Assembly (NCBI GenBank): GCA_009995045.1
Contig: JAACQG010000006.1
Location: 102,448-166,447 of the forward strand
Origin: Alphaproteobacteria bacterium
Lineage (GTDB): Bacteria > Pseudomonadota > Alphaproteobacteria > Micavibrionales > Micavibrionaceae
Length of the DNA stretch: 64,000 bases
Direction: 5' to 3'
Positions within the stretch are counted from its first letter, which is position 1. Every line of letters begins with the position of its first letter. Under the pieces are notes generated by a model. The model had not been told where the DNA came from, made no database searches, and saw only the letters and a program-made list of their open reading frames with translations. Position numbers and translations under genes: made by a program. Shown in pieces: positions 21,785-58,408 of the stretch.

Positions 21785-21799
21785 TTAAGCATTTGTTAA
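21785..21799. promoter_or_regulatory. Perfect CtrA-type site upstream of LysM-amidase gene
   Basis: TTAA-N7-TTAA (half-sites at 21785-21788 and 21796-21799) matches the CtrA consensus known from Caulobacter and other alphaproteobacteria. It lies 49 bases before the amidase start and 21 bases before thiE on the other side, so it could control either. A third TTAA follows three bases later. Confidence 0.55.
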
Positions 21800-21847
21800 G
21801 ACTTAAACGTCATAATGAAAAGAAAAAAATATGAGGGTGTTTTTTAA

Positions 21848-23797
21848 ATGGCTTTAGATGATGTCGAACAAGACGCTTCGACCAATAGACAATATGTCGT
21901 AAAATCAGGCGACAATATCACAACAATAGCCAAATCATTTGGCTACAATGATATCGATGATTTCATTGCGCTCAATGTCGACAAATACCCATCACTAGAA
22001 AACAACCCCGGCTTAATTCAGCCCGGCTGGACATTCAACACACAACGTGAAGCGCCTGAAACAGGAAGCTATTCTGTCAAACTAGGCGACAATCTAACCG
22101 ACATCGCAACATCCTTCGGAACCGATGTAGACACCTTGGTAAAATTAAATCAAGACACCTACAGATCATTAAGAACCGATCCTGATACCATCCAACCAGG
22201 ATGGACTTTAAGCGTCGCAAAACCAGAGCCTATAGCAACACCAACACCAGATATCGCGCCTACACAATCCCCTCAGAATGGCACACCACCGGATATGAGC
22301 GCCGATTTTGATGCAGCAACCAGACCTCAAACTGATGCTCCGGTATTAAGACAACAAGCCCCCGATCTGCCGTCTGCACCGGCCATTCAGGACGCGCCAG
22401 CACCAATAGAAACCCCACAGCAACCAGACGCATCGTCTGCACCAGACGTCCTCACCGACAATATCCAACAACCACAGCCAGCAGAAATGGATGAAGCACT
22501 GGCAACCATCACAGAGCTTGAGCCAGAACCAACAACTTCACGCTCAGAGCAGCCCACAACACTCACATCACCAAACGAACAACAAGAAACCCACACCGTT
22601 GTGAGCGGTGACACACTGGGTAAAATAGCCGAGAGATTTAACACCGATGTCGAAACACTGGTCAAACTCAATCAGGATGCCTATCCCTCACTCAAAACAA
22701 ATCCAGGCTTAATTCATCCTGACTGGGAATTAAGTGTCTCCGCCCCGACAGGACTTGCAGATTTATTACCAAACATTGAAAGCGCCCCCGCTCAACCCGA
22801 AATTTCCGCCGCACCGGACATGCCGACACCCCCTATCACCGAAGCTGATGAACCAATAATCACATCCGCATTAGATACCTCGCCAGCATTAACACAACCA
22901 CCATCACTCGGTGACGCACCCCGCCCTGACGACAAACCAGCAATCAGCGGCTCATTCAACACATCAAACAGCCGGGATGAGCGCCTTGCACAATTATCAG
23001 CAAGCGTCTGGAACAACATCAGAACAGGCGAACCAATCGTAACAAAAGCATCCGCTAGCCAATCAAACACATTAATCATCATTGATTTAGGTCATAATAC
23101 TGGCGGCGATCCAGGGGCAGAGTCAAACCACAACCACCTCACAGAAATTGACGTCATCGACCCCGTCGGCGGCGAATTAGCAGCCCAGTTGAGAGCTCAA
23201 GGCTTTGATGTACTTTTCACCCGTAACCCCGGGGAGAGATTACAAGGTTTTGAAACACGCAACAGCAGAGTAGGCCCGAATGGGCTAACCGGCAGAGCAG
23301 CCAGAGCAGATTTTGCATCACTCACAACACAACATGGAGGATATCAAAACTCTATCCTGTTAAGCCTTCACGCTGACTCCGAACCAACCAACACAGCAAA
23401 AGGACTAATTGCTTACGCAGGCTCTAGACCGAATGGAGATGGCAGAGTAGATATTGGCCGCGCAGCAATTGACCCGGATTCAAGAAAACTTACCCAAGCA
23501 ATTGCGGGTAACGTAGAAGTAAGATCAAAAACCAACACAGCAGACGCGACAGTTTTATCACGCTTTGAACGGACACAACCATCACAAGGAAAGCACGTAG
23601 CCGCCCTTGTCGAGCTAGGCTTCCTAAGTAACGCTCAGGACGCATCAAGATTAGAAGATATGTCACAAGCCCCGGAATCCATCGCAGAACAAATCACATC
23701 AGGCATAATGGCATTCTATTCAGAAAACATTCACCCACAAAACGGCCCAGACATAACAATCGCATCTTTATCTACGCGATCAGCACCTCCAAACTAA
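21848..23797 (+). CDS. Triple-LysM N-acetylmuramoyl-L-alanine amidase without a Sec signal
   Basis: The 649-residue protein has three LysM peptidoglycan-binding modules (about residues 15-64, 74-122 and 248-297), Pro/Ala/Thr-rich linkers (123-245, 300-400) and a C-terminal Amidase_3 domain (about 408-635). Zinc ligands H416 (DLGHN), E433 and H508 (SLHAD) and catalytic E589 (VELGFLSN) are all present, so it should cleave the amide between MurNAc and the stem peptide. The N-terminus MALDDVEQDA is hydrophilic with no signal peptide. The stop overlaps that of convergent sucA by four bases. The ribosome site GAGGGTG is ten bases from the ATG. Confidence 0.88.
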   Translation: MALDDVEQDASTNRQYVVKSGDNITTIAKSFGYNDIDDFIALNVDKYPSLENNPGLIQPGWTFNTQREAPETGSYSVKLGDNLTDIATSFGTDVDTLVKLNQDTYRSLRTDPDTIQPGWTLSVAKPEPIATPTPDIAPTQSPQNGTPPDMSADFDAATRPQTDAPVLRQQAPDLPSAPAIQDAPAPIETPQQPDASSAPDVLTDNIQQPQPAEMDEALATITELEPEPTTSRSEQPTTLTSPNEQQETHTVVSGDTLGKIAERFNTDVETLVKLNQDAYPSLKTNPGLIHPDWELSVSAPTGLADLLPNIESAPAQPEISAAPDMPTPPITEADEPIITSALDTSPALTQPPSLGDAPRPDDKPAISGSFNTSNSRDERLAQLSASVWNNIRTGEPIVTKASASQSNTLIIIDLGHNTGGDPGAESNHNHLTEIDVIDPVGGELAAQLRAQGFDVLFTRNPGERLQGFETRNSRVGPNGLTGRAARADFASLTTQHGGYQNSILLSLHADSEPTNTAKGLIAYAGSRPNGDGRVDIGRAAIDPDSRKLTQAIAGNVEVRSKTNTADATVLSRFERTQPSQGKHVAALVELGFLSNAQDASRLEDMSQAPESIAEQITSGIMAFYSENIHPQNGPDITIASLSTRSAPPN

Positions 23798-26715
23798 ACC
23801 GTCAAGGCCTCATCAACCAGCTTCTTCTGCTCTTCCAAATGGCGAGACATCAAACCGGTCGCAGGCGCCGCGGCGGCAACACGCCCAACATATTTCGGAC
23901 GCGATGCTTTATGCTTCAGCTTGGTAAGGACATTCTCGATACGGCGGTCAACAAACTGCCACGCGCCTTGGTTTTCCGGCTCTTCCTGACACCAAACAAT
24001 GTCAGCATTCTTACAACCAGCCAATTCCTCCGCCAAAACAAGACCAGGGAACGGATAGAGCTGTTCTAGACGTAAGATACGAATATCATCAATACCGCGC
24101 TCACGACGCTCCGCAAGCAGGTCATAATAAACCTTACCAGTACACAGGATCACACGCTTGATCTTGTCCGCCTTAACAAGGCTATCACGATCATCATCCC
24201 ACAAAACACGGTGGAATGTGCTTTCCTTCGTGAACATATCAATATCAGAAACGGCCAATTTGTGACGCAACAAAGATTTCGGCGTAAACACAATCAATGG
24301 CTTTCTGAAATCACGATGCATCTGACGGCGCAGCGCATGGAAAAAGTTTGCCGGTGTCGTACAATTAACAACCTGCCAGTTATCTTCCGCACATTGCTGC
24401 AAGAAACGCTCGGGACGCGCCGAGCTATGCTCTGGCCCTTGCCCTTCATATCCATGCGGCAACAACATCACCAATCCCGACATACGAAGCCATTTAGATT
24501 CGCCCGATGAAATAAACTGGTCAATCATCACCTGCGCACCATTCACGAAATCTCCAAATTGCGCTTCCCAAATCGTAAGCGTCTTCGGATCCGCCAATGA
24601 ATACCCATATTCAAACCCAAGCACCGCCATCTCGGAGAGCGGTGAATCATGCGCTTCAAATTTCGGATCATCATTGGTCAACGTCTTAAGCGGATAATAT
24701 TGCTCATTCGTCTCTTGATCATACCAAATCGCATGGCGGTGAGAGAACGTCCCGCGCCCAACATCCTGCCCCGAAAGACGAACCGGATATCCTTCATCAA
24801 GCAATGTCGCATAAGCCAACGTCTCACCCATCGCCCAGTCAAATCCTTCGCCCGTTTCCAACATCTTCGCCCGCGCATCAATCACACGCTTAAGCTTTTT
24901 ATTAATGTTAAATCCGGCTGGAATGGCAGTAATAACACGCCCGACTTTTTGAATCACATCCTCATCAACACCTGTCTCGCCGCGGTTTGGCCCCTCGGTC
25001 GCAACACGCATATCCGACCAGACCCCCGCCAAGAAATCGGCTTCATTGGGCTTATAACTCTCGGTCGCCTTAAACGCATCCTCAAGATTGCCCTCAAATT
25101 CAGCAACCATGCCTTCAAATTCATCTTGCGTGACAACCTTTTCGCCCACCAATTGCTCTGCATATTTGGTCAACGATGTCTTTTGCTCGGAGATTTTCTG
25201 ATACATGATCGGCTGCGTGAACGCTGGCTCATCGCCTTCGTTATGGCCAAATCGACGATAACAGAACATATCAATCACGACATCACGCTTAAATTCCTGA
25301 CGAAACTCCGTCGCTATCCGCGCAACATGCACAACCGCTTCGGGGTCATCCCCATTCACGTGGAAAATAGGCGCTGCCAACATTTTCGCCACATCCGTTG
25401 AATACGGACCAGAGCGCGAATATTTCGGCATGGTCGTGAAACCAATCTGGTTATTAATCACAATATGAACAGTCCCGCCAACACGATAACCGGGAAGCTC
25501 TGAAATCATAAGCGTTTCCGCCGTAATCCCCTGCCCAGCAAACGCCGCATCACCGTGCAAAATCAATGGCATAACAGAAATTGACTGCACATCATCGCGC
25601 TGCAACTGTTTCGCCCGCACCTTACCGATAACAACCGGATTCACAAATTCAAGGTGAGACGGGTTAGCCGTCAATGACAGGTGAATATTATTGCCGTCAA
25701 AATCACGGTCACTGGATGTCCCCATATGATATTTAACATCACCCGAGCCAAGCACATCATCAGGCGTCGAAGACTGCCCCTGAAACTCGACAAAAATCGC
25801 AGTAAAGGATTTACCCATGACATTCGCAAGCACATTCAAACGCCCGCGATGCGCCATACCAATGACCATCTCTTCAAGGCCCATCTGACCGCCACGCTTC
25901 ATGATCTGCTCAATCAATGGAATAAGCGCTTCACCGCCATCAACGCCAAAACGCTTCGTGCCCGGATATTTTTTATGAAGGAATTGCTCGAACTTTTCGC
26001 CCGCAATCATGCGCTGCAAAATCGCGCGTTTACCGGTTTCAGTGAAATCAGTCTTGTTACGCGGCTCTTCAATACGCTCTTGTACCCATGCTTTTTCTTT
26101 GGGATCGGTAAGATGAAGAAACTCAACACCAATCGTACCGCAATATGTCTCCTTCAAGATTTCAATAATCTCGCTCAACGTTGCGTATTCTTTGCCCAAA
26201 ACACCATTGATGAAAATCGGGCGATTATAATCAGATTTTGAAAACCCGTAATGCGCTGGATCAAGCTCAGATTCTGGCGCAACCTCTTTCAATCCCAACG
26301 GATCAAGATTCGCAAGCATGTGCCCGCGCGCACGATAGGCCCGTATAAGCATCAACGCGCCGATGGAATCATTCGCCGCCTGTTTAACATCATCACTGGA
26401 AACGCCGCCCTTCGCGCGCTGTCCTGATGGTGCGCTTTTTGCGCCTGATGCTTTCGCTGCTTCTGTACCATGCGCTGGCAAATCATCATTCGCATTGCCG
26501 AACGCACGCTCGGATTTGCGGTTTTCCTTGGGCGTCCAACTCGCGCCCGTCATTTCGCTCAAAAGCTCAACTTCTTTATCAGCAAGATCACCGAAAAACT
26601 CCTGCCAGCTCTCATCAACATTGGACGGGTTAGAGAGAAACTCGGTATATAAATGCGCGATATATTCCGCGCTCACGCCTGTTAAGAATGAGATATTTGA
26701 TGCTTCTTGCGACAT
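23794..26715 (-). CDS. sucA: 2-oxoglutarate dehydrogenase E1 component
   Basis: SucA decarboxylates 2-oxoglutarate with thiamine diphosphate and passes succinyl to the lipoyl arm of SucB. The 973-residue protein has the short N-terminal E2-binding segment (YIAHLYTEFLSNPSNVDESW), the GMAHRGRLNVLANVMGK motif, the ThDP/Mg region with HINGDDPEAVVH-type sequence (written HVNGDDPEAVVH here) and the LLPHGYEGQGPEHSSARPER motif near the C-terminus. Length is normal. It lies upstream of thiE-thiD-thiL and sucB on the minus strand, with the amidase gene facing it. Confidence 0.97.
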   Translation of the reverse strand: MSQEASNISFLTGVSAEYIAHLYTEFLSNPSNVDESWQEFFGDLADKEVELLSEMTGASWTPKENRKSERAFGNANDDLPAHGTEAAKASGAKSAPSGQRAKGGVSSDDVKQAANDSIGALMLIRAYRARGHMLANLDPLGLKEVAPESELDPAHYGFSKSDYNRPIFINGVLGKEYATLSEIIEILKETYCGTIGVEFLHLTDPKEKAWVQERIEEPRNKTDFTETGKRAILQRMIAGEKFEQFLHKKYPGTKRFGVDGGEALIPLIEQIMKRGGQMGLEEMVIGMAHRGRLNVLANVMGKSFTAIFVEFQGQSSTPDDVLGSGDVKYHMGTSSDRDFDGNNIHLSLTANPSHLEFVNPVVIGKVRAKQLQRDDVQSISVMPLILHGDAAFAGQGITAETLMISELPGYRVGGTVHIVINNQIGFTTMPKYSRSGPYSTDVAKMLAAPIFHVNGDDPEAVVHVARIATEFRQEFKRDVVIDMFCYRRFGHNEGDEPAFTQPIMYQKISEQKTSLTKYAEQLVGEKVVTQDEFEGMVAEFEGNLEDAFKATESYKPNEADFLAGVWSDMRVATEGPNRGETGVDEDVIQKVGRVITAIPAGFNINKKLKRVIDARAKMLETGEGFDWAMGETLAYATLLDEGYPVRLSGQDVGRGTFSHRHAIWYDQETNEQYYPLKTLTNDDPKFEAHDSPLSEMAVLGFEYGYSLADPKTLTIWEAQFGDFVNGAQVMIDQFISSGESKWLRMSGLVMLLPHGYEGQGPEHSSARPERFLQQCAEDNWQVVNCTTPANFFHALRRQMHRDFRKPLIVFTPKSLLRHKLAVSDIDMFTKESTFHRVLWDDDRDSLVKADKIKRVILCTGKVYYDLLAERRERGIDDIRILRLEQLYPFPGLVLAEELAGCKNADIVWCQEEPENQGAWQFVDRRIENVLTKLKHKASRPKYVGRVAAAAPATGLMSRHLEEQKKLVDEALTV

Positions 26716-26806
26716 TTTAAAGGGGCCTTATGTGCGTTAATTCAGGGTAACCATAATGGATGTAATGCCTCGCAAAAGCAAGGTCAAGAACGCATTGAAT
26801 ACAAAG

Positions 26807-27364
26807 CTAAATATATTCCAGATTTAACGCAGATGAGAGCGCCAAAAGCGCTTTGCGTTCATCGGGAGAAATCGACAGAAAGTCCTCAAAACTTTTCACA
26901 GGAAGCTTCTTGGCCTTGGCTTGACGCACCATTTTCAAATACCGCAAATACGCCTTAAACCGCCCAAAACCGGCCTGCGATTCAATATCCTCACGAAACG
27001 CAAGCGCCACCGCCTCACCCAACGCCAATATACGACGCGCATAGGCGGCGCGTTCCTTATGATCGACCTGAGACGCTAAAATCGAGAGCGCATCGGCGCA
27101 TTCCTTTGGCACATGCGCCAAATCCTTATGCCAATTCTTCCACTCATGCTTATGCTTGATCGTTTCCGCCATCACATGCTGAACAAGCTCTGATCCGAAA
27201 ACACCGTCGGAAAACCCATAAATCAAATTCTCCAGCGCGCGCAGCTCATTTTCACTCGCCGCATCCCCGCCAGAGCTATCACTAGCAGACACAAAAAGCC
27301 CCGCCCGATACGGAAGGCTGATAAGGCGCTTAAATTGATTATCTGTAAAAGTTTCTAAAACCAT
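26807..27364 (-). CDS. Hypothetical protein (185 aa) beside sucA
   Basis: No family was recognised. The predicted soluble helical protein begins MVLETFTDNQFKRL from an ATG at 27362-27364; a TTG eight codons upstream (27388) is possible but no better supported by a ribosome site. Residues about 100-175 are an alternating helical region rich in Ala, Lys and Arg (RILALGEAVALAFRED, then YLRYLKMVRQAKAKK). It has the same orientation as the TCA genes and sits between sucA and a DUF4174 gene, with 91 bases before sucA. Confidence 0.65.
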   Translation of the reverse strand: MVLETFTDNQFKRLISLPYRAGLFVSASDSSGGDAASENELRALENLIYGFSDGVFGSELVQHVMAETIKHKHEWKNWHKDLAHVPKECADALSILASQVDHKERAAYARRILALGEAVALAFREDIESQAGFGRFKAYLRYLKMVRQAKAKKLPVKSFEDFLSISPDERKALLALSSALNLEYI

Positions 27365-27402
27365 GATTATACGATACGCAATATCCAAAAGAATTCAATC
27401 TC

Positions 27403-27879
27403 TTATTGCGCATCAATCTCCCGCTGACGCATCGGCATCGCATCAATCACATCAAAAATCTCAGACGGCTCAACAACCCCGCTCCAAAACTCCTTAATCT
27501 CACCATCAAGCCCGACAAGCGTCACGCTCAACTCGCCCTCAATAACAACATCACGCGAAAATAAAGTCTCCAGGTAACGTCGCTCCTGCCCGTTTTCCAA
27601 AATGCGCGTTTGATAGGGAAAGGGTGATAAGTCATCAACTTTCCTCAAAACCTGACTGGTTAGCTGAAGAACAATCAACTCCCGCTCCTCCATCTCAGGA
27701 ACATAATCACGCAGCAATGCAATCTGCTCCAACACTTGCGGCGAATTCTCATCCGCGCTCAACACAAGTACACGGTTCTGCCATTTCAACGCATCAAAAC
27801 TCTGCGCCGAAACAGGCGTCCCCAACACAAGAATGGCCCCCAAAAGGAGCCATCCAAAAATTTTATATCGCTTCATCAT
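27403..27879 (-). CDS. DUF4174 family exported protein
   Basis: The 158-residue protein has a Lys/Arg N-terminus and a hydrophobic core (about residues 6-24) ending TPVSAQS, a good signal peptidase site, so it should be periplasmic. The mature part begins with the family feature FDALKWQNRVLVLSADE, a thioredoxin-like strand order without the CxxC, and ends with TLVGLDGEIKEFW followed by IFDVIDAMPMRQRE, typical of DUF4174. The start at 27879 is chosen for the GGAAGG ribosome site five bases away. Function is unknown. It lies between sucD and the 185-aa unknown gene. Confidence 0.75.
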   Translation of the reverse strand: MMKRYKIFGWLLLGAILVLGTPVSAQSFDALKWQNRVLVLSADENSPQVLEQIALLRDYVPEMEERELIVLQLTSQVLRKVDDLSPFPYQTRILENGQERRYLETLFSRDVVIEGELSVTLVGLDGEIKEFWSGVVEPSEIFDVIDAMPMRQREIDAQ

Positions 27880-27945
27880 ATTAACCTTCCCAAAAATCAG
27901 GTTGATGGTCATTACATTTAAAGCAGCATTTGCAGCCTATTAAAT

Positions 27946-28821
27946 TTAAGCAGCGATTGCTTCCTTGATTGCCTTACCAAGACCCGCAGGGCTCTCAGAT
28001 ACGACAAAACCAGCATCACGCATTGCTTTCATTTTCGCAGGCGCAGTATCATCTGATCCTGAAATCAACGCTCCAGCATGGCCCATACGCTTACCTGGAG
28101 GAGCAGTCGCCCCAGCAATAAATCCGGCAATAGGCTTCTTATTCTTGAGGCCTTTATAATATTCAGCCGCTTCAATCTCTGCCGTTCCGCCGATCTCACC
28201 GATCATAAGGATCGACTCGGTTTCTGGGTCATTCATAAACAAATCAATACAATCGATAAAGTTCGTGCCGTTCACCGGGTCACCACCAATACCAATACAT
28301 GTCGATTGACCAAGACCAACCGCGCCTGTTTGTGCAACCGCTTCATATGTAAGCGTACCAGAACGTGACACAATCCCTACAGAACCGCGCTTATGAATGT
28401 GACCCGGCATAATACCGATCTTACATTCATCCGGCGTAATAACACCCGGACAGTTCGGGCCAATCAAACGAGTCTTAGAACCCGCCAAAGCCGCCTTCAC
28501 CTTAACCATATCAAGCACAGGAATGCCTTCAGTGATACAAATCGCAAGCTCAACTTCCGCTTCAATCGCTTCAATGATCGCCGCCGCCGCAAATGGTGGT
28601 GGAACATAGATCACAGAAGCATCAACACCAACCGCGTCTTTTGCTTCTTTCACCGTATTAAACACAGGAAGACCAAGATGCTCCTGCCCGCCTTTTTTCG
28701 GCGTAACACCACCAACCATGTTGGTGCCATAAGCAATCGCTTGCTCACTGTGGAACGTGCCTTGTGATCCGGTGAAACCCTGACAAATTACTTTTGTTTC
28801 TTTATTGACTAAAACTGACAT
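27946..28821 (-). CDS. sucD: Succinate-CoA ligase subunit alpha
   Basis: SucD forms the CoA-binding and phosphohistidine half of succinyl-CoA synthetase. The 291-residue sequence has the CoA motif [25 protein letters not shown], and the active-site region [10 protein letters not shown]-type motif ([12 protein letters not shown] here) containing the phosphorylated histidine. Length is normal. Its start codon overlaps the sucC stop by one base (TAATG), so translation is coupled. Confidence 0.98.
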
Positions 28822-30020
28822 TACGCCGCCTCCGCTTGGCTAGTGGCTGCAACTACCTTCGTCGCAGCATCTTCTAAATCATCGGCAGAAATAATCGGCA
28901 AACCAGAAGCCGCCATCAATTCCTTACCCTTTTGAACATTTGTTCCTTCAAGACGCACAACAAGCGGCACGCTCAAATTCACTTCTTTCGCTGCGGCAAT
29001 CACGCCCTCGGCAATAACATCACATTTCATGATGCCGCCAAAGATATTGACAAGAATGCCCTTAACACTTGGATCAGAAAGAATGATCTTGAATGCTGTC
29101 GTCACGCGCTCTGCTGTCGCGCCACCACCAACATCCAAAAAGTTCGCAGGCTCACCGCCCTTAAGCTTAATGATATCCATAGTCGACATCGCCAAACCTG
29201 CACCATTAACCATACAGCCAATATTGCCATCAAGGCGCACATAAGAAAGCTCGTTATCCGCAGCCAATTTCTCATTCGCGTCCTCTTCTGTCTCATCACG
29301 AAGCGCTTTAATATCGGGGTGGCGATAAAGCGCATTCCCGTCAAAGCTCATCTTCGCATCAAGCGCCATAACCTCATCACCAACAGTGATCAACGGGTTA
29401 ATCTCGACAATTTCCGCATCCAATTCGATGTAGCATTTGTAAAGATTAGCAAAAAGCACCTTCGCGCTCTCCGCCTTTGCACCGCTCAATTCAAGACCAG
29501 CCGCCAACTTGTCACCATCCGCATCGGTAAAACCGGCAACTGGATCAATCGCAACACTGATAATCTTTTCTGGGTGGCTCTCGGCAACCTCTTCAATGTC
29601 CATTCCGCCTTCGGTCGAAACCATAAACGCAACTTTGCTCTGACCACGGTCAAGAACAACTGAACAATAATATTCTTTTTCAATGTCCACACCGTCTGTC
29701 ACGTACAAACGCTGAACTTCCTTGCCTTCAGGGCCAGTCTGCTTTGTCACCAAAGTCTTACCCATCATTGCTTCTGCCGCTGCGCGAACATCATCAACTG
29801 TCTTACAGAGACGAACACCGCCCTTGCCTTCTGGATTATCGGTAAAATGACCGGCACCGCGTCCACCTGCGTGGATTTGCGCCTTAACAACGTAAAGATC
29901 TGTTGTCATGCTCTCTGCGGCTTTAACCGCCTCTTCAACGTTCATTGCAGGAATGCCGTCCGGCACCGCTACGCCATACTTCTTAAGAAGTTCTTTTGCT
30001 TGGTATTCATGAATATTCAT
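28821..30020 (-). CDS. sucC: Succinate-CoA ligase (ADP-forming) subunit beta
   Basis: SucC is the ATP-grasp subunit that pairs with SucD to convert succinyl-CoA and ADP to succinate and ATP. The 399-residue protein starts [17 protein letters not shown] and has [22 protein letters not shown] and [14 protein letters not shown], all diagnostic. It is the first gene of the sucC-sucD pair and directs translation of sucD through a one-base overlap. The upstream region is shared with a divergent 705-aa unknown gene and holds a perfect CtrA-type site. Confidence 0.98.
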
Positions 30021-30181
30021 GGATGAGTCTCTCTTTTAGTTGTCCAAATATCTTGAGCCGAGTGTGCAGCGCAAGAATGAATCTACATCCAATGACTTAG
30101 CCGCCCCTCACACCGATTGCAACCCGTAAAGCGCCAAAAAAACACGATAAAATGCACATCTTTAGGGTTTCATTGGCTTTC

Positions 30182-30198
30182 TTAATAATACCTTAACC
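30182..30198. promoter_or_regulatory. Perfect CtrA-type site upstream of the 705-aa gene
   Basis: TTAA-N7-TTAACC (half-sites 30182-30185 and 30193-30196, with the favoured C following) is a full consensus CtrA box. It lies 75 bases before the GTG of the 705-aa gene and about 160 bases before sucC on the other side. A CATATATTAG stretch downstream could be the -10 region. The rest of the 252-base gap shows no gene. Confidence 0.55.
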
Positions 30199-30272
30199 TT
30201 TCTTCCATATATTAGGGGCAGAATATTATAAGTGGCAATAAGTCACATTGAGTAAATAGAGAAGGTGTATAA

Positions 30273-32390
30273 GTGGCGTTAGATGATGTAACAACATCGC
30301 AGGAGTTAGAGGATACAGCGGTTTTCACGCCGAATCTTGTGCTCGACCTACTCCGCTCAATCGCCCCCGATATCAATCCACCTCAAGGTATTATCAACAT
30401 GCTAGCGCGTGATGCAAACCGCTATCAAGGCGGCGACAACCAAACCGCAACCCTTGAAGCACTAGAAGCAGACATCATAAGCGCATTTGAAAACTCAGAG
30501 CCCCCCATAAACAGCCCTGACGGCCCAGCAACAGATGCAAATATCAACTACGTTCAAAGCACCCTCAACCTCATCCTAGCCGGCGCCGACGGCGCCATAG
30601 CCAACATCTCCGCCCAAAACATGGGCGGAATAACCCCGCAGGAAAAAGAAAAAGAACGTGCTAAAAGAGTAAACGCAGATGCAGTATTTTCTCAAATGAT
30701 GGATTCAGCTTTGAATTCTGCTGCATCAAACGCAGCATTAGCAGCTGGTATTCCCGCTAATGTATATAACAATCTTTCACTATACGTTGATAGAAATTTA
30801 CCTGAAGCAAGTCGAACAGCAATTGATAGTATCGCAAATGATGTTTCAAAAGGACAATCAATTGATGACGAAGAGGCACGCACTGCAATCGACGGGATAG
30901 TAAAGTCCGTTGAAAATGTTCCCGAATATTATGAAGGTTTAACAGACGAACAAAAAAGTGAATTTCTAAAAATCAAGCTAGCTGAAGACACAGCTGAAAA
31001 AATGTTAAAAGACAACCCTAACTTAGACCCTGAAGAGGCATTTAATCAAGCACTTGAAAAGATTAATGAACTTGAGGCATCCAACCCTGAAATATTCCAA
31101 GATCTAATACAAACCGCAGATCAAAGAATATTAACACTAAAAGCAGAGGGTGTCGCAACATCACACACACTAAGAACAGGAGCATCACTTGCAACTTATG
31201 GCTTAATGAGCAACGCTAAAAGCTCTGACTTTTCCGACCCTAATAACATCACTGAAGGAATAAGCACCCTTATCGAAAACCCTTCTGCACAAAACATAGA
31301 CAAATTCATCGCTGACCTTGACAAAAGCATCGTTGAAAATGGAGAGCAAGGCATCGCCTTGCGTGAATCCCAAGAAGCACTTGAAGCAAAAATTGAAAAT
31401 CTCAAAAACTCGCCTTACGCAAATGACGGCCCTATCAGAGCCCAAATCGAGCTTGCAGAAGCCCAAATTGAAGGCATGGAAGAAACCTTCGATAACTTAA
31501 CCAACATGAATATGCTCCTTATAGAAGTCAAAGTGTTTGTCGATGACAACAAAAAAGCAATTCTCAATAACAACAATCCAAACCAACTTATGGCCATGGC
31601 CCTTCAAAGCCCAAGCCTCAGAGAGGCAATAGACAAAATCTCCGGCGGCATTGGTAGTGAAAAATGGCAAGCAGGCATAGAAGCTGTCGCTGCTCAAATA
31701 GGGCTAAGCGAAGAATACACCGCTAAATATATTCAAGAACAAATCGATATATCCAATAAAGTAACAGAATTAGAAAACTCCGTTACATACATGGAAGAAT
31801 TCAAAGCACAAATCGAAGCTGATGCCGCACAAGGCATCAACAATCATTTCTCACCGGAAAAAGCCGCCGAAATGATTGCGGAAAGGGAAGCTGAAATTCA
31901 GCAATTAAAAGATGAATTGTACGGAAGCACTATCCATGACGGCTTAGTTTCAGAAGCATCCGACGCACCAGCAGCTCCCGCCCCAGATCCGGCTCAAGCT
32001 TTTCTAGATAACAATCCTGAGCTAAAAAGCTACATTTCATCATTATCTGAACTGCCATATATATCTGAAGCAGATCTGCTATCTGAGCTTGAAGAACGAG
32101 GCTTAACAGCAGACCAAGCAGCTCAAATCGCAGAAATCGCAGAAACAAAAATGGCGGTAAATGTTGCCCCCAAAATTGCGACACCAATGCTTGAAAATCA
32201 AATTGACAGGCTTTCCTATAACAGTCCGCCACCATCATTGTCTGGAACATATAACGTAGCAGCAGCAGAAAACCAAGAACCAACACCACAAACACCGGCA
32301 CCAGAGGTAATGACGCCAAAAGAGATAGAATTAGCGGCCAAAGTGGAAACCGCAAACACACCAGGATCGCCGATGAATATGAGCGCTTAA
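30273..32390 (+). CDS. Large soluble protein of unknown function (705 aa), coiled coil
   Basis: No family was recognised. The start is a GTG preceded by GAAGGTG; the first residues, (M)ALDDV, are the same as in the LysM-amidase, and the DNA around both starts is alike. The protein is acidic, soluble and mostly helical with no signal or membrane segment. Segments around residues 360-420 and 490-560 have heptad character (ELENSVTYMEEFKAQIEAD, EREAEIQQLKDELY). The last 80 residues are Pro/Ala/Thr-rich and disordered in appearance. Asn-rich patches occur near residue 430. It reads as a structural or scaffold protein, or an exported effector, by appearance only. Confidence 0.7.
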   Translation: MALDDVTTSQELEDTAVFTPNLVLDLLRSIAPDINPPQGIINMLARDANRYQGGDNQTATLEALEADIISAFENSEPPINSPDGPATDANINYVQSTLNLILAGADGAIANISAQNMGGITPQEKEKERAKRVNADAVFSQMMDSALNSAASNAALAAGIPANVYNNLSLYVDRNLPEASRTAIDSIANDVSKGQSIDDEEARTAIDGIVKSVENVPEYYEGLTDEQKSEFLKIKLAEDTAEKMLKDNPNLDPEEAFNQALEKINELEASNPEIFQDLIQTADQRILTLKAEGVATSHTLRTGASLATYGLMSNAKSSDFSDPNNITEGISTLIENPSAQNIDKFIADLDKSIVENGEQGIALRESQEALEAKIENLKNSPYANDGPIRAQIELAEAQIEGMEETFDNLTNMNMLLIEVKVFVDDNKKAILNNNNPNQLMAMALQSPSLREAIDKISGGIGSEKWQAGIEAVAAQIGLSEEYTAKYIQEQIDISNKVTELENSVTYMEEFKAQIEADAAQGINNHFSPEKAAEMIAEREAEIQQLKDELYGSTIHDGLVSEASDAPAAPAPDPAQAFLDNNPELKSYISSLSELPYISEADLLSELEERGLTADQAAQIAEIAETKMAVNVAPKIATPMLENQIDRLSYNSPPPSLSGTYNVAAAENQEPTPQTPAPEVMTPKEIELAAKVETANTPGSPMNMSA

Positions 32391-32466: not shown

Positions 32467-32985
32467 ATGGCACGTCCACACCCTTTCATCGAAGAAGCAG
32501 CAAGGCTCAATTTAGAGCCATTCGGGCCCGATGCCACCGCGGAGGAAAAAGCGCAGCGTGAAAAATTGGTCGCTAAGCATATAGAAAATTTGACAGCTTA
32601 CACCATAAATCCCGATGCGGGTGACATGACGCCTGAGCAATTTGAAGCAAGACAAAGCGGCGTCTGGACCGCAGAATTGCTTAAAAGCCAAGGCGGAAGC
32701 CGATATAATTTCGGCAATATAGCTGCCACACTCGGCAAAACATTTATGGCTGTATTCAGCTGGCTTATTGGCAATACCGAAGAAGCCTCCGCCCTTTACG
32801 CCGAATTAGAGCGTGAGGAAAGATACGCCCCGAGAGAGGGAAGTCCGATCATTACGAACACTCCAGATACAAAGGGATTAGCCGGAGCGCAAGCAGATTT
32901 TGAAAAGCAGTTCGCCAACGCGACAAACGCTCAAAATCTCAATCGCGCCCCTGCCCCTAGCCTCGACATGAAACCTGCCGCTTAG
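32467..32985 (+). CDS. Hypothetical protein (172 aa), partner of the 705-aa gene
   Basis: No family was recognised. It is a soluble helical protein beginning MARPHPFIEEAARLNLEPFG with one hydrophobic stretch (about residues 82-102, ATLGKTFMAVFSWLIG) that could be a membrane-active or buried helix. The C-terminus is Ala/Pro-rich (APAPSLDMKPAA), as in the 705-aa protein. It follows that gene after 76 bases on the same strand. The nearest AAGGA lies 16 bases before the ATG, which is too far, so initiation is unclear. It converges on mdh with six bases between stops. Confidence 0.6.
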   Translation: MARPHPFIEEAARLNLEPFGPDATAEEKAQREKLVAKHIENLTAYTINPDAGDMTPEQFEARQSGVWTAELLKSQGGSRYNFGNIAATLGKTFMAVFSWLIGNTEEASALYAELEREERYAPREGSPIITNTPDTKGLAGAQADFEKQFANATNAQNLNRAPAPSLDMKPAA

Positions 32986-32991
32986 CAGACT

Positions 32992-33972
32992 CTAGCCGAG
33001 CAAATCTTCAACAGCCTTACGCTCTTCACGCAATTCTGTTTCAGTTGCATCCATTTTCGCGCGTGAAAATGCGTTAATCTCCAACCCTTGCACGATTTGG
33101 TATTGTCCGCCCGCACATGTCACGGGATAGCCGTAAATGATGCCCGGCTCAATACCATATGATCCATCGGATGGAACAGCCATGGAAACCCAATCCCCAT
33201 CAGTCGTGCCAAGCGCCCAATTGCGCATATGATCAATCGCCGCAGACGCCGCAGACGCGGCCGAAGACGCCCCGCGCGCCTTGATGATCGCCGCGCCGCG
33301 TTGTTGCACAGTCGGTATAAAATCGCTCTCATACCAATCTTGCTCAACCGCATCAATCGCGGATTTGCCCTTAACTTCGGCATGGTGAATATCAGGATAT
33401 TGCGTCGCCGAGTGATTGCCCCAGATGATCATCTTCTTCACATCCGTTGAATGCGCACCCGTTTTCTCAGCAAGTTGCGAAAGCGCACGGTTATGATCAA
33501 GACGAACCATCGCAGTAAAGCATAACGGATCAAGGTCAGGCGCGTTTTCCTGTGCAATGAGTGCATTCGTATTCGCAGGATTGCCAACAACCAAAACTTT
33601 CACATCGCGCGATGCATGATCGTTCAATGCTTTGCCTTGTGGCCCGAATATACCGCCATTGGCAGAGAGCAAATCTTTGCGCTCCATCCCATCTTTGCGG
33701 GGCATAGAGCCAACAAGCAACGCATAATCAACATCCTTAAACGCGACATTCGCATCATCAGACGTAACAACGCCTGCAAGCAATGGAAACGCGCAGTCAT
33801 TAAGCTCCATCACAACGCCGGAAAGCGCACCAAGTGCGGGCGTAATCTCAAGCAAATGCAGGATAATCGGCTGATCCGGCCCAAGCATTTCGCCTTGCGC
33901 GATACGGAATAAAAGGGAATATCCAATTTGTCCGGCGGCTCCGGTAACAGCGACTCTAACTGGTGATTTCAT
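32992..33972 (-). CDS. mdh: Malate dehydrogenase (long NAD-dependent type)
   Basis: The 326-residue enzyme oxidises malate to oxaloacetate, closing the TCA cycle. Motifs are [19 protein letters not shown] (NAD site), the substrate loop with [23 protein letters not shown] and the catalytic histidine in [11 protein letters not shown]. This form is the cytosolic-type MDH family, not the lactate-dehydrogenase-like MDH (opening with an IGxGxIGG motif) that most alphaproteobacteria carry beside sucCD. The ATG at 33970-33972 is preferred because AAGGAG precedes it; the longer frame adds 23 hydrophobic residues with no support. A short low-complexity run ([10 protein letters not shown]) lies near residue 238. 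Confidence 0.95.
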
Positions 33973-34054
33973 GGGCGATAGCTCCTTGTTGAATTTTGAT
34001 TCGTACGTGATTGTAAACCACAGGTAACAATAGATAAACATGGATTTTTATGCA

Positions 34055-47497: not shown

Positions 47498-47605
47498 ACA
47501 AGATAAAATCTAGATATAAGAATACGTCATATTGATTAAACGACAATTAAAAACACACGATTAAACACAATGGAAATCACAAATAACGATTTTTGATAGG
47601 ATAAA

Positions 47606-58242: not shown

Positions 58243-58408
58243 CTGTTTATTTTTTATAGAATTAAGAATGATTTAATCTTTTTGATGTGATAATGTAGGG
58301 GAAGGTAAGATTTAAGTGGGACTGTAATTTTATCTTTGTTGAGTAACTTAGGAAAAGCTTTCAACACGTCTTATATGAGGCATTAAACATCCAAAGGAGA
58401 AACCTATC

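Follow-up and report, generated by a model that had tools for sequence, protein, structure and literature searches.

Predicted CtrA control of two accessory genes with a common protein start in a Micavibrionaceae bacterium

Why should two accessory genes of one genome, whose proteins are otherwise unlike, be preceded by the same regulatory box and open with the same residues? The question is raised by a stretch of 64,000 nucleotides from a bacterium of the family Micavibrionaceae (Alphaproteobacteria; assembly GCA_009995045.1, contig JAACQG010000006.1, positions 102,448 to 166,447 of the forward strand), which we call the window throughout. One of the genes encodes a LysM-amidase; the other encodes a protein of 705 residues and is the first gene of an accessory block that runs divergently from sucC and has its far end at mdh. 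An earlier reading made without database searches (the sequence-only reading) had noted the box TTAA-N7-TTAA, which passages of PMC9437464 and PMC11264516 describe as the CtrA box, upstream of both genes. This is borne out, with the difference that the distances to the starts, given as 49 and 75 bases, are 48 and 76 nucleotides when measured (coordinates in Table 1). The common protein start is also present: the proteins begin MALDDV and (V/M)ALDDV, and the DNA of the two start regions is the second most similar among 11,175 gene pairs, behind a pair of neighboring genes whose proteins also begin alike. The remainder of the two proteins is unlike, as had been said, and their Pfam content differs. 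Both start codons are immediately preceded by an in-frame TAA, so that no longer N-terminus is possible.

Judging from sequence, we consider it probable (about 0.6) that both genes belong to the CtrA regulon and to a class of accessory genes whose products are leaderless (without a signal peptide) and in which the control DNA is better conserved than the coding sequence.

Placement of the boxes and predicted control by CtrA

The boxes are real and meaningful, and it is their placement, not their count, that shows so. Raw counts were dropped as evidence: the window holds 4 boxes where 1.5 are expected (at least 4 occurred in 7 of 100 shuffles), and the genome holds 54 compared with 86 matches to a reversed control pattern. 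Placement was analyzed in the window together with 20 stretches around sucC from relatives, a total of 378,109 bases of which 9.6 % are intergenic; this sample was picked around the sucC locus and says little on the rest of the genomes. Within it, TTAA-N7-TTAA occurs at 37 intergenic sites and at no coding site, while each of 13 control spacings (N2–N6 and N8–N15) gives 3–10 intergenic and 1–12 coding sites. Triple half-sites occur 8 times at N7 and not at all at spacings 4–6 and 8–11. When the region just upstream of sucC is left out, 17 intergenic and no coding N7 sites remain. The accessory blocks, with 7,150 intergenic bases, hold 30 of the 37 N7 sites, compared with an average of 1.85 for the 13 other spacings; outside the blocks there are 7 N7 sites against a mean of 4.0 for the others. 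Among the boxes read in the window's genome, 39 of 51 are intergenic.

Both genes are very probably under CtrA control. This prediction is well supported because the boxes are spacing-specific, found only in intergenic DNA, concentrated in the accessory block and conserved at the position of the 705-residue gene (in 7 of 7 same-genus relatives), and because a CtrA ortholog is encoded in the genome (locus G000:C11:1085-1771, equivalog NF045991 at 406 bits, cut-off 350). The regulatory claim of the sequence-only reading stands to this extent, with binding itself a prediction. Phosphorylated CtrA would bind TTAA-N7-TTAA upstream of the genes and switch them in one cell-cycle phase, and in several sister species its target would consist of three half-sites, TTAA-N7-TTAA-N7-TTAA. 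Two outcomes had been named in advance as speaking against the sequence-only reading, and they came out differently: the full start is found in no further gene, whereas intergenic DNA upstream of these accessory genes is clearly richer in the box than intergenic DNA elsewhere.

The sucC-mdh spot and the shared start

What, then, is conserved at the position of the 705-residue gene? In the 20 relatives, the place between sucC and mdh mostly holds one to several genes, none of which matches the window's proteins (in one stretch, L047, no divergent gene directly adjoins sucC). In each of the 7 same-genus relatives, the spot of the 705-residue gene is occupied by a gene for a leaderless-looking protein behind a CtrA box. 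Of 21 sources, 12 have a box near the start of sucC; the genus accounts for 8 (of 8) and other genera of the family for 4 (of 12), and the single source from another family has none. The exact 32-base triple element with ATTTTA after it (TTAA-N7-TTAA-N7-TTAAATTTTA) appears at least 5 times in 58 genomes, and the 5 among the matches listed are all at the sucC spot (G001, G003, G004, G007 and G013); a MAFFT alignment of ten such regions has one invariant TTAA half-site. Boxes also precede inner genes of the block, with 9 sites upstream of the second or third gene (g2/g3; L035, L037, L038, L040, L043, L050, L051 and L054).

The proteins behind these boxes behave differently. In six of the seven sister species the first gene belongs, together with that of G013, to one recognizable and very divergent family, which G003 joins (pairwise identity of 21–41 % over parts), and the window's 705-residue protein lies outside it (hhalign probability 0.3 %). 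No homolog of this protein was detected in phages, in 57 relatives or in 104 other genomes of the family, and it matches no family; ten first or large proteins that were scanned likewise match no family above cut-off. A single-sequence structural model of the 705-residue protein is mostly helical with a low mean confidence (predicted local distance difference test, pLDDT, of 54.8). Residues ~145–290 are confident and residues 622–705, like the N-terminal part, are of low confidence; against the PDB the model has no match below E 0.1 (best E 0.11). Two further links that seemed plausible by eye failed. The 172-residue protein of the window, compared with the N-termini of g2/g3 proteins of relatives, shows no significant similarity (E 0.12, hhalign 0.2 %), and a seed profile for a common helical hairpin domain has no match to the 705-residue protein. 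Taken together, a shared, fast-evolving class with a fixed promoter is quite probable. The sucC-mdh spot would have retained the box and part of the leader, joined in a few species by the first codons (DTGGCNTTA), and the coding sequence behind this control DNA may have diverged beyond recognition or been replaced.

The shared start itself is of narrower distribution. Neither the full MALDDV start nor its DNA pattern occurs elsewhere in the genome, and the search that the sequence-only reading had proposed for further MALDDV proteins returned none beyond the pair. The 57 relatives contain 8 other DNA matches to the start, all internal to other genes or open reading frames. A genome-wide MALDDV tag is ruled out by these results, and the suggestion of an export or targeting tag is not supported in the form in which it was put; residues 1–142 of the 705-residue model have low confidence and no fold. 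The alternative offered at the time, a promoter-plus-start cassette, is partly upheld. In the genome, the leader TTGAGTAAATA..AGRGGTG is found also at at least two further CtrA-box genes (a giant gene in L184 and a gene in L182), and GGTGT within 20 bases before the start occurs in 3 of 151 genes, which are the pair and one more box gene. Of its 37 box genes, 3 are preceded by the leader GAGTAA followed by GGTGT or GGGTG, compared with none of 179 other genes. The GGTGT-type motif precedes 4 of 37 box genes and 3 of 179 others in the window's genome (p 0.018) and 8 of 50 compared with 9 of 281 in relatives (p 0.0013), p values that reuse the data in which the motif was noticed. Only 5 of 546 genes begin MAL. 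Four of these, the pair plus the first gene of the block in G003 and in G004, are also the only ones of the 546 with DTGGCNTTA starts. The counterparts of the 705-residue gene begin MALD in G003 and MALLDD in G004. The combination of box, leader and first codons is complete in the pair alone. This pattern favors a start that was kept at the sucC spot through large changes of the protein, with the amidase as its second bearer, and it is plausible that a promoter-leader-start cassette persists as the coding part changes. Whether the shared start is itself part of an inherited cassette, and not a matter of chance, we regard as evenly balanced.

Wall enzymes, export routes and rival explanations

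It is also important to consider what the products of such genes would do. The LysM-amidase matches LysM (1.1e-24) and Amidase_3 (3.8e-19, 69.8 bits, cut-off 27), no NCBIfam equivalog lies above its cut-off, and the protein contains the motifs IDLGH, LTE, SLHAD and ELGFLSN, which we take to surround the expected catalytic residues. Its best 12-residue hydropathy is 0.48, compared with 2.24–2.54 in three signal-bearing transglycosylases of relatives. Since an in-frame stop abuts the ATG and the N-terminus is not hydrophobic, the amidase is without the signal peptide that would mark a Sec-secreted autolysin. Outside the block, box-preceded leaderless hydrolases comprise this amidase, an amidase homolog in G019, a LysM and M23 protein beside sucD in G006 and an alpha/beta hydrolase in G017. 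The last (L226:6355-7779; 474 residues, Hydrolase_4) has CtrA boxes and the leader motif. Among ten inner-block (third-gene) proteins, four score above their Pfam cut-off, as SLT (G012 and G011), M23 (G017) and GH108 (G010). The products of the class would include large helical proteins as well as wall hydrolases without signal peptides (the LysM-amidase, the relatives' amidase and LysM-M23 protein and, in some blocks, SLT and M23 enzymes).

Such proteins may leave the cell independently of Sec, most simply via one of two type I systems, and may act on the peptidoglycan of the cell itself or of its neighbors. Type I adaptors above cut-off are present in 56 of 58 genomes, compared with 1 of 14 control genomes, and the window's genome has two complete type I secretion systems. 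One of these (L222) comprises a cadherin/Ig-repeat protein, TolC, an LssB-type ATPase and HlyD; the other (L223:5450-12544, contig C24) is a complete set with no obvious substrate, followed by a CHASE2/guanylate-cyclase protein. Neither an adjoining transporter gene nor RTX repeats were found for the pair; type I substrates that lack both exist. Export of the proteins seems possible, at slightly less than even odds, and the type I route is a tentative suggestion. In its fullest form, which we consider doubtful, the proposal is that of a fixed CtrA launch site. Next to a housekeeping operon, promoter, leader and first codons would be inherited as a cassette, and the coding sequence that follows would be swapped or rewritten from one species to the next. 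The products would be leaderless, wall-attacking proteins, timed by the cell cycle and exported without Sec, and with the LysM-amidase the cassette would have landed a second time.

Several observations weigh against a class of CtrA-controlled leaderless proteins with conserved control DNA. The tests of the leader motif draw on the data from which it came, and by count the leader pattern is not enriched, with 22 matches to 18 for the reversed control in 58 genomes; 7 of the 22 have a box within 250 nucleotides, as do 5 of the 12 that open a reading frame of at least 200 residues. A box precedes the amidase gene in only 2 of 7 amidase-matching relatives. The box near the sucC start is found in only a third of the family members from other genera, and the blocks of G011 and G012, with good SLT enzymes, have no box at sucC. 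Since the 705-residue protein has no homology to its counterparts, orthology rests on position. Of the ten inner-block proteins, three match SLT or NlpC/P60 below cut-off and three match nothing. With a value of 2.23, the N-terminus of the G010 GH108 protein is hydrophobic, so the class is not wholly leaderless, and box genes taken together show no shortage of hydrophobic N-termini relative to other genes (13 %, compared with 17 %).

The most serious competitor accepts the boxes as CtrA sites and takes the MALDDV match as coincidental, the pair being two ordinary CtrA targets that lie close together. A given gene pair shares residues 2–6 with a chance of 1.7e-6, so that about 3.4 such pairs are expected per 2000 genes and the hexapeptide by itself is no more than suggestive; no other gene repeats the full start, and the remaining parts of the proteins are not homologous. 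The expectation for one 60-gene window, however, is 0.003, and the rank of the start-region DNA, the leader at further box genes and the MAL starts in G003 and G004 also argue against coincidence (MAL in 2 of 7 relatives has a chance of 2.9e-4, a post hoc value from two proteins related to each other). Coincidence is a substantial possibility. A different view is that the sucC-side box serves sucC, as part of a CtrA-switched tricarboxylic acid cycle operon, with the accessory neighbors incidental. The box does lie between divergent genes, 161 nucleotides from the sucC start in the window. This seems quite unlikely, as further boxes precede inner block genes and, at a distance from sucC, the amidase and other accessory genes, and as 37 of 38 genomes have sucC, yet the box is absent there in 9 of the 20 relatives examined.

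Two other explanations concern the route by which the proteins would act. Amidases, muramidases, M23 enzymes and lipase-like hydrolases without signal peptides are the usual cargo of injection machines, and the proteins might be effectors of a contact-dependent machine (e.g., type VI) used against other bacteria; the amidase, the LysM-M23 protein and the alpha/beta hydrolase among the box-preceded genes would suit this, as would rapid divergence. We consider it unlikely, since no adjoining immunity gene was recognized (no genome-wide search was made) and many members have no enzyme domain. Export by the flagellar apparatus, in step with CtrA-driven motility genes, would fit the box of a CheA-like gene (L185) and the presence of FlhA in 50 of 58 genomes. 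FlhA (PF00771) was not found in the window's genome (assembly 93.75 % complete) or in G004, the two assemblies being ~94 % complete, and both genomes carry the block, which argues against this route and makes it very improbable. FlhA is present in most of the genus, and the two genomes still have chemotaxis genes with a CtrA box.

Other box genes and relation to known systems

The features of the pair and of its surroundings are collected in Table 1. The other two boxes of the window lie at 47536-47550, 38 nucleotides before the gene of a 126-residue cyclic-nucleotide-binding protein, and at 58262-58276, 152 nucleotides before that of a 1048-residue protein with SdrD_B-like and carboxypeptidase-regulatory-like domains.

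Table 1. Boxes, leaders and genes of the pair and its flanks (window coordinates)
Feature	Position	Strand	Remark
CtrA-type box TTAAGCATTTGTTAA	21785..21799	+	48 nt upstream of the LysM-amidase ATG (21848); 20 nt before the divergent thiE-like start
5' leader with GAGGGTGT	21826..21847	+	before the LysM-amidase start; in-frame TAA abuts the ATG
LysM-amidase, 649 aa, leaderless, LysM (3 stretches) and Amidase_3, starts MALDDV	21848..23797	+	Pfam; no hydrophobic N-terminus
sucC	28821..30020	-	conserved flank; served to locate the block in relatives
CtrA-type box TTAATAATACCTTAA	30182..30196	+	76 nt upstream of the 705-aa gene GTG (30273); position boxed in 7/7 same-genus relatives
Leader TTGAGTAAATAGAGAAGGTGTATAA	30247..30272	+	before the 705-aa gene; common to two other CtrA-box genes of the genome
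705-aa protein gene, leaderless, no family	30273..32390	+	first gene of the accessory block beside sucC
172-aa gene	32467..32985	+	second of the block; located where relatives have g2/g3 genes
mdh-like gene	32992..34041	-	conserved far flank of the block

Elsewhere in the genome, seven further box genes (a giant one of 1711 residues and others of 478, 247, 287, 217, 234 and 326) have no Pfam match. Other boxes precede ordinary genes, presumably CheA-like (L185), RpoH-like and CarD-like, as named from sequence resemblance. A second variable spot lies between purH- and lepA-like genes (L224:4005-9140 on contig C24 of the window's genome, G000; L228:7112-13402 in G017), holding a gene for 203–247 residues, two small genes and a giant leaderless gene (1711 and 2096 residues) without a Pfam match. 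CtrA boxes precede several of these genes, and in G005 (L229) a box follows purH at the contig end.

CtrA targets have usually been studied as conserved motility, pilus and division genes. The arrangement described here shares with the CtrA regulon of Alphaproteobacteria (Caulobacter pilA-type promoters) the same box, a CtrA ortholog and a chemotaxis gene among the box genes. It differs in that the best-conserved boxes precede fast-evolving genes without a family instead of those for pili or flagella, and in having three evenly spaced half-sites and a coding sequence that is exchanged behind the box. The LysM-amidase has the domain order and motifs of known enzymes that combine LysM with an N-acetylmuramoyl-L-alanine amidase (Amidase_3), but it is without a signal peptide and has disordered, Pro/Ala-rich linkers. 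Leaderless wall and lipid hydrolases and rapid divergence recall type VI and other interbacterial effectors; unlike for those, no machine or immunity protein was identified, with no genome-wide search made for either. For Micavibrio aeruginosavorus, passages of PMC3189940 report type I systems, with a giant substrate beside TolC-HlyB-HlyD, and, for Micavibrio, type I and II systems, types III and IV not having been found. The set at L222 is similar to this, whereas the CtrA-box proteins adjoin neither type I system of the window's genome, and use of either is hypothetical. The literature found on CtrA, Micavibrio, Micavibrionales, peptidoglycan hydrolases, type I secretion and orphan genes does not, in the portions available to us, describe such a block.

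Within the 378 kb sampled, CtrA boxes are most concentrated at a spot that has kept its control DNA but not its protein. This gives a handle for finding orphan effector-like genes through their promoter instead of through homology, and it makes testable how leaderless wall hydrolases would exit the cell and whether cell-cycle timing may protect the producer.

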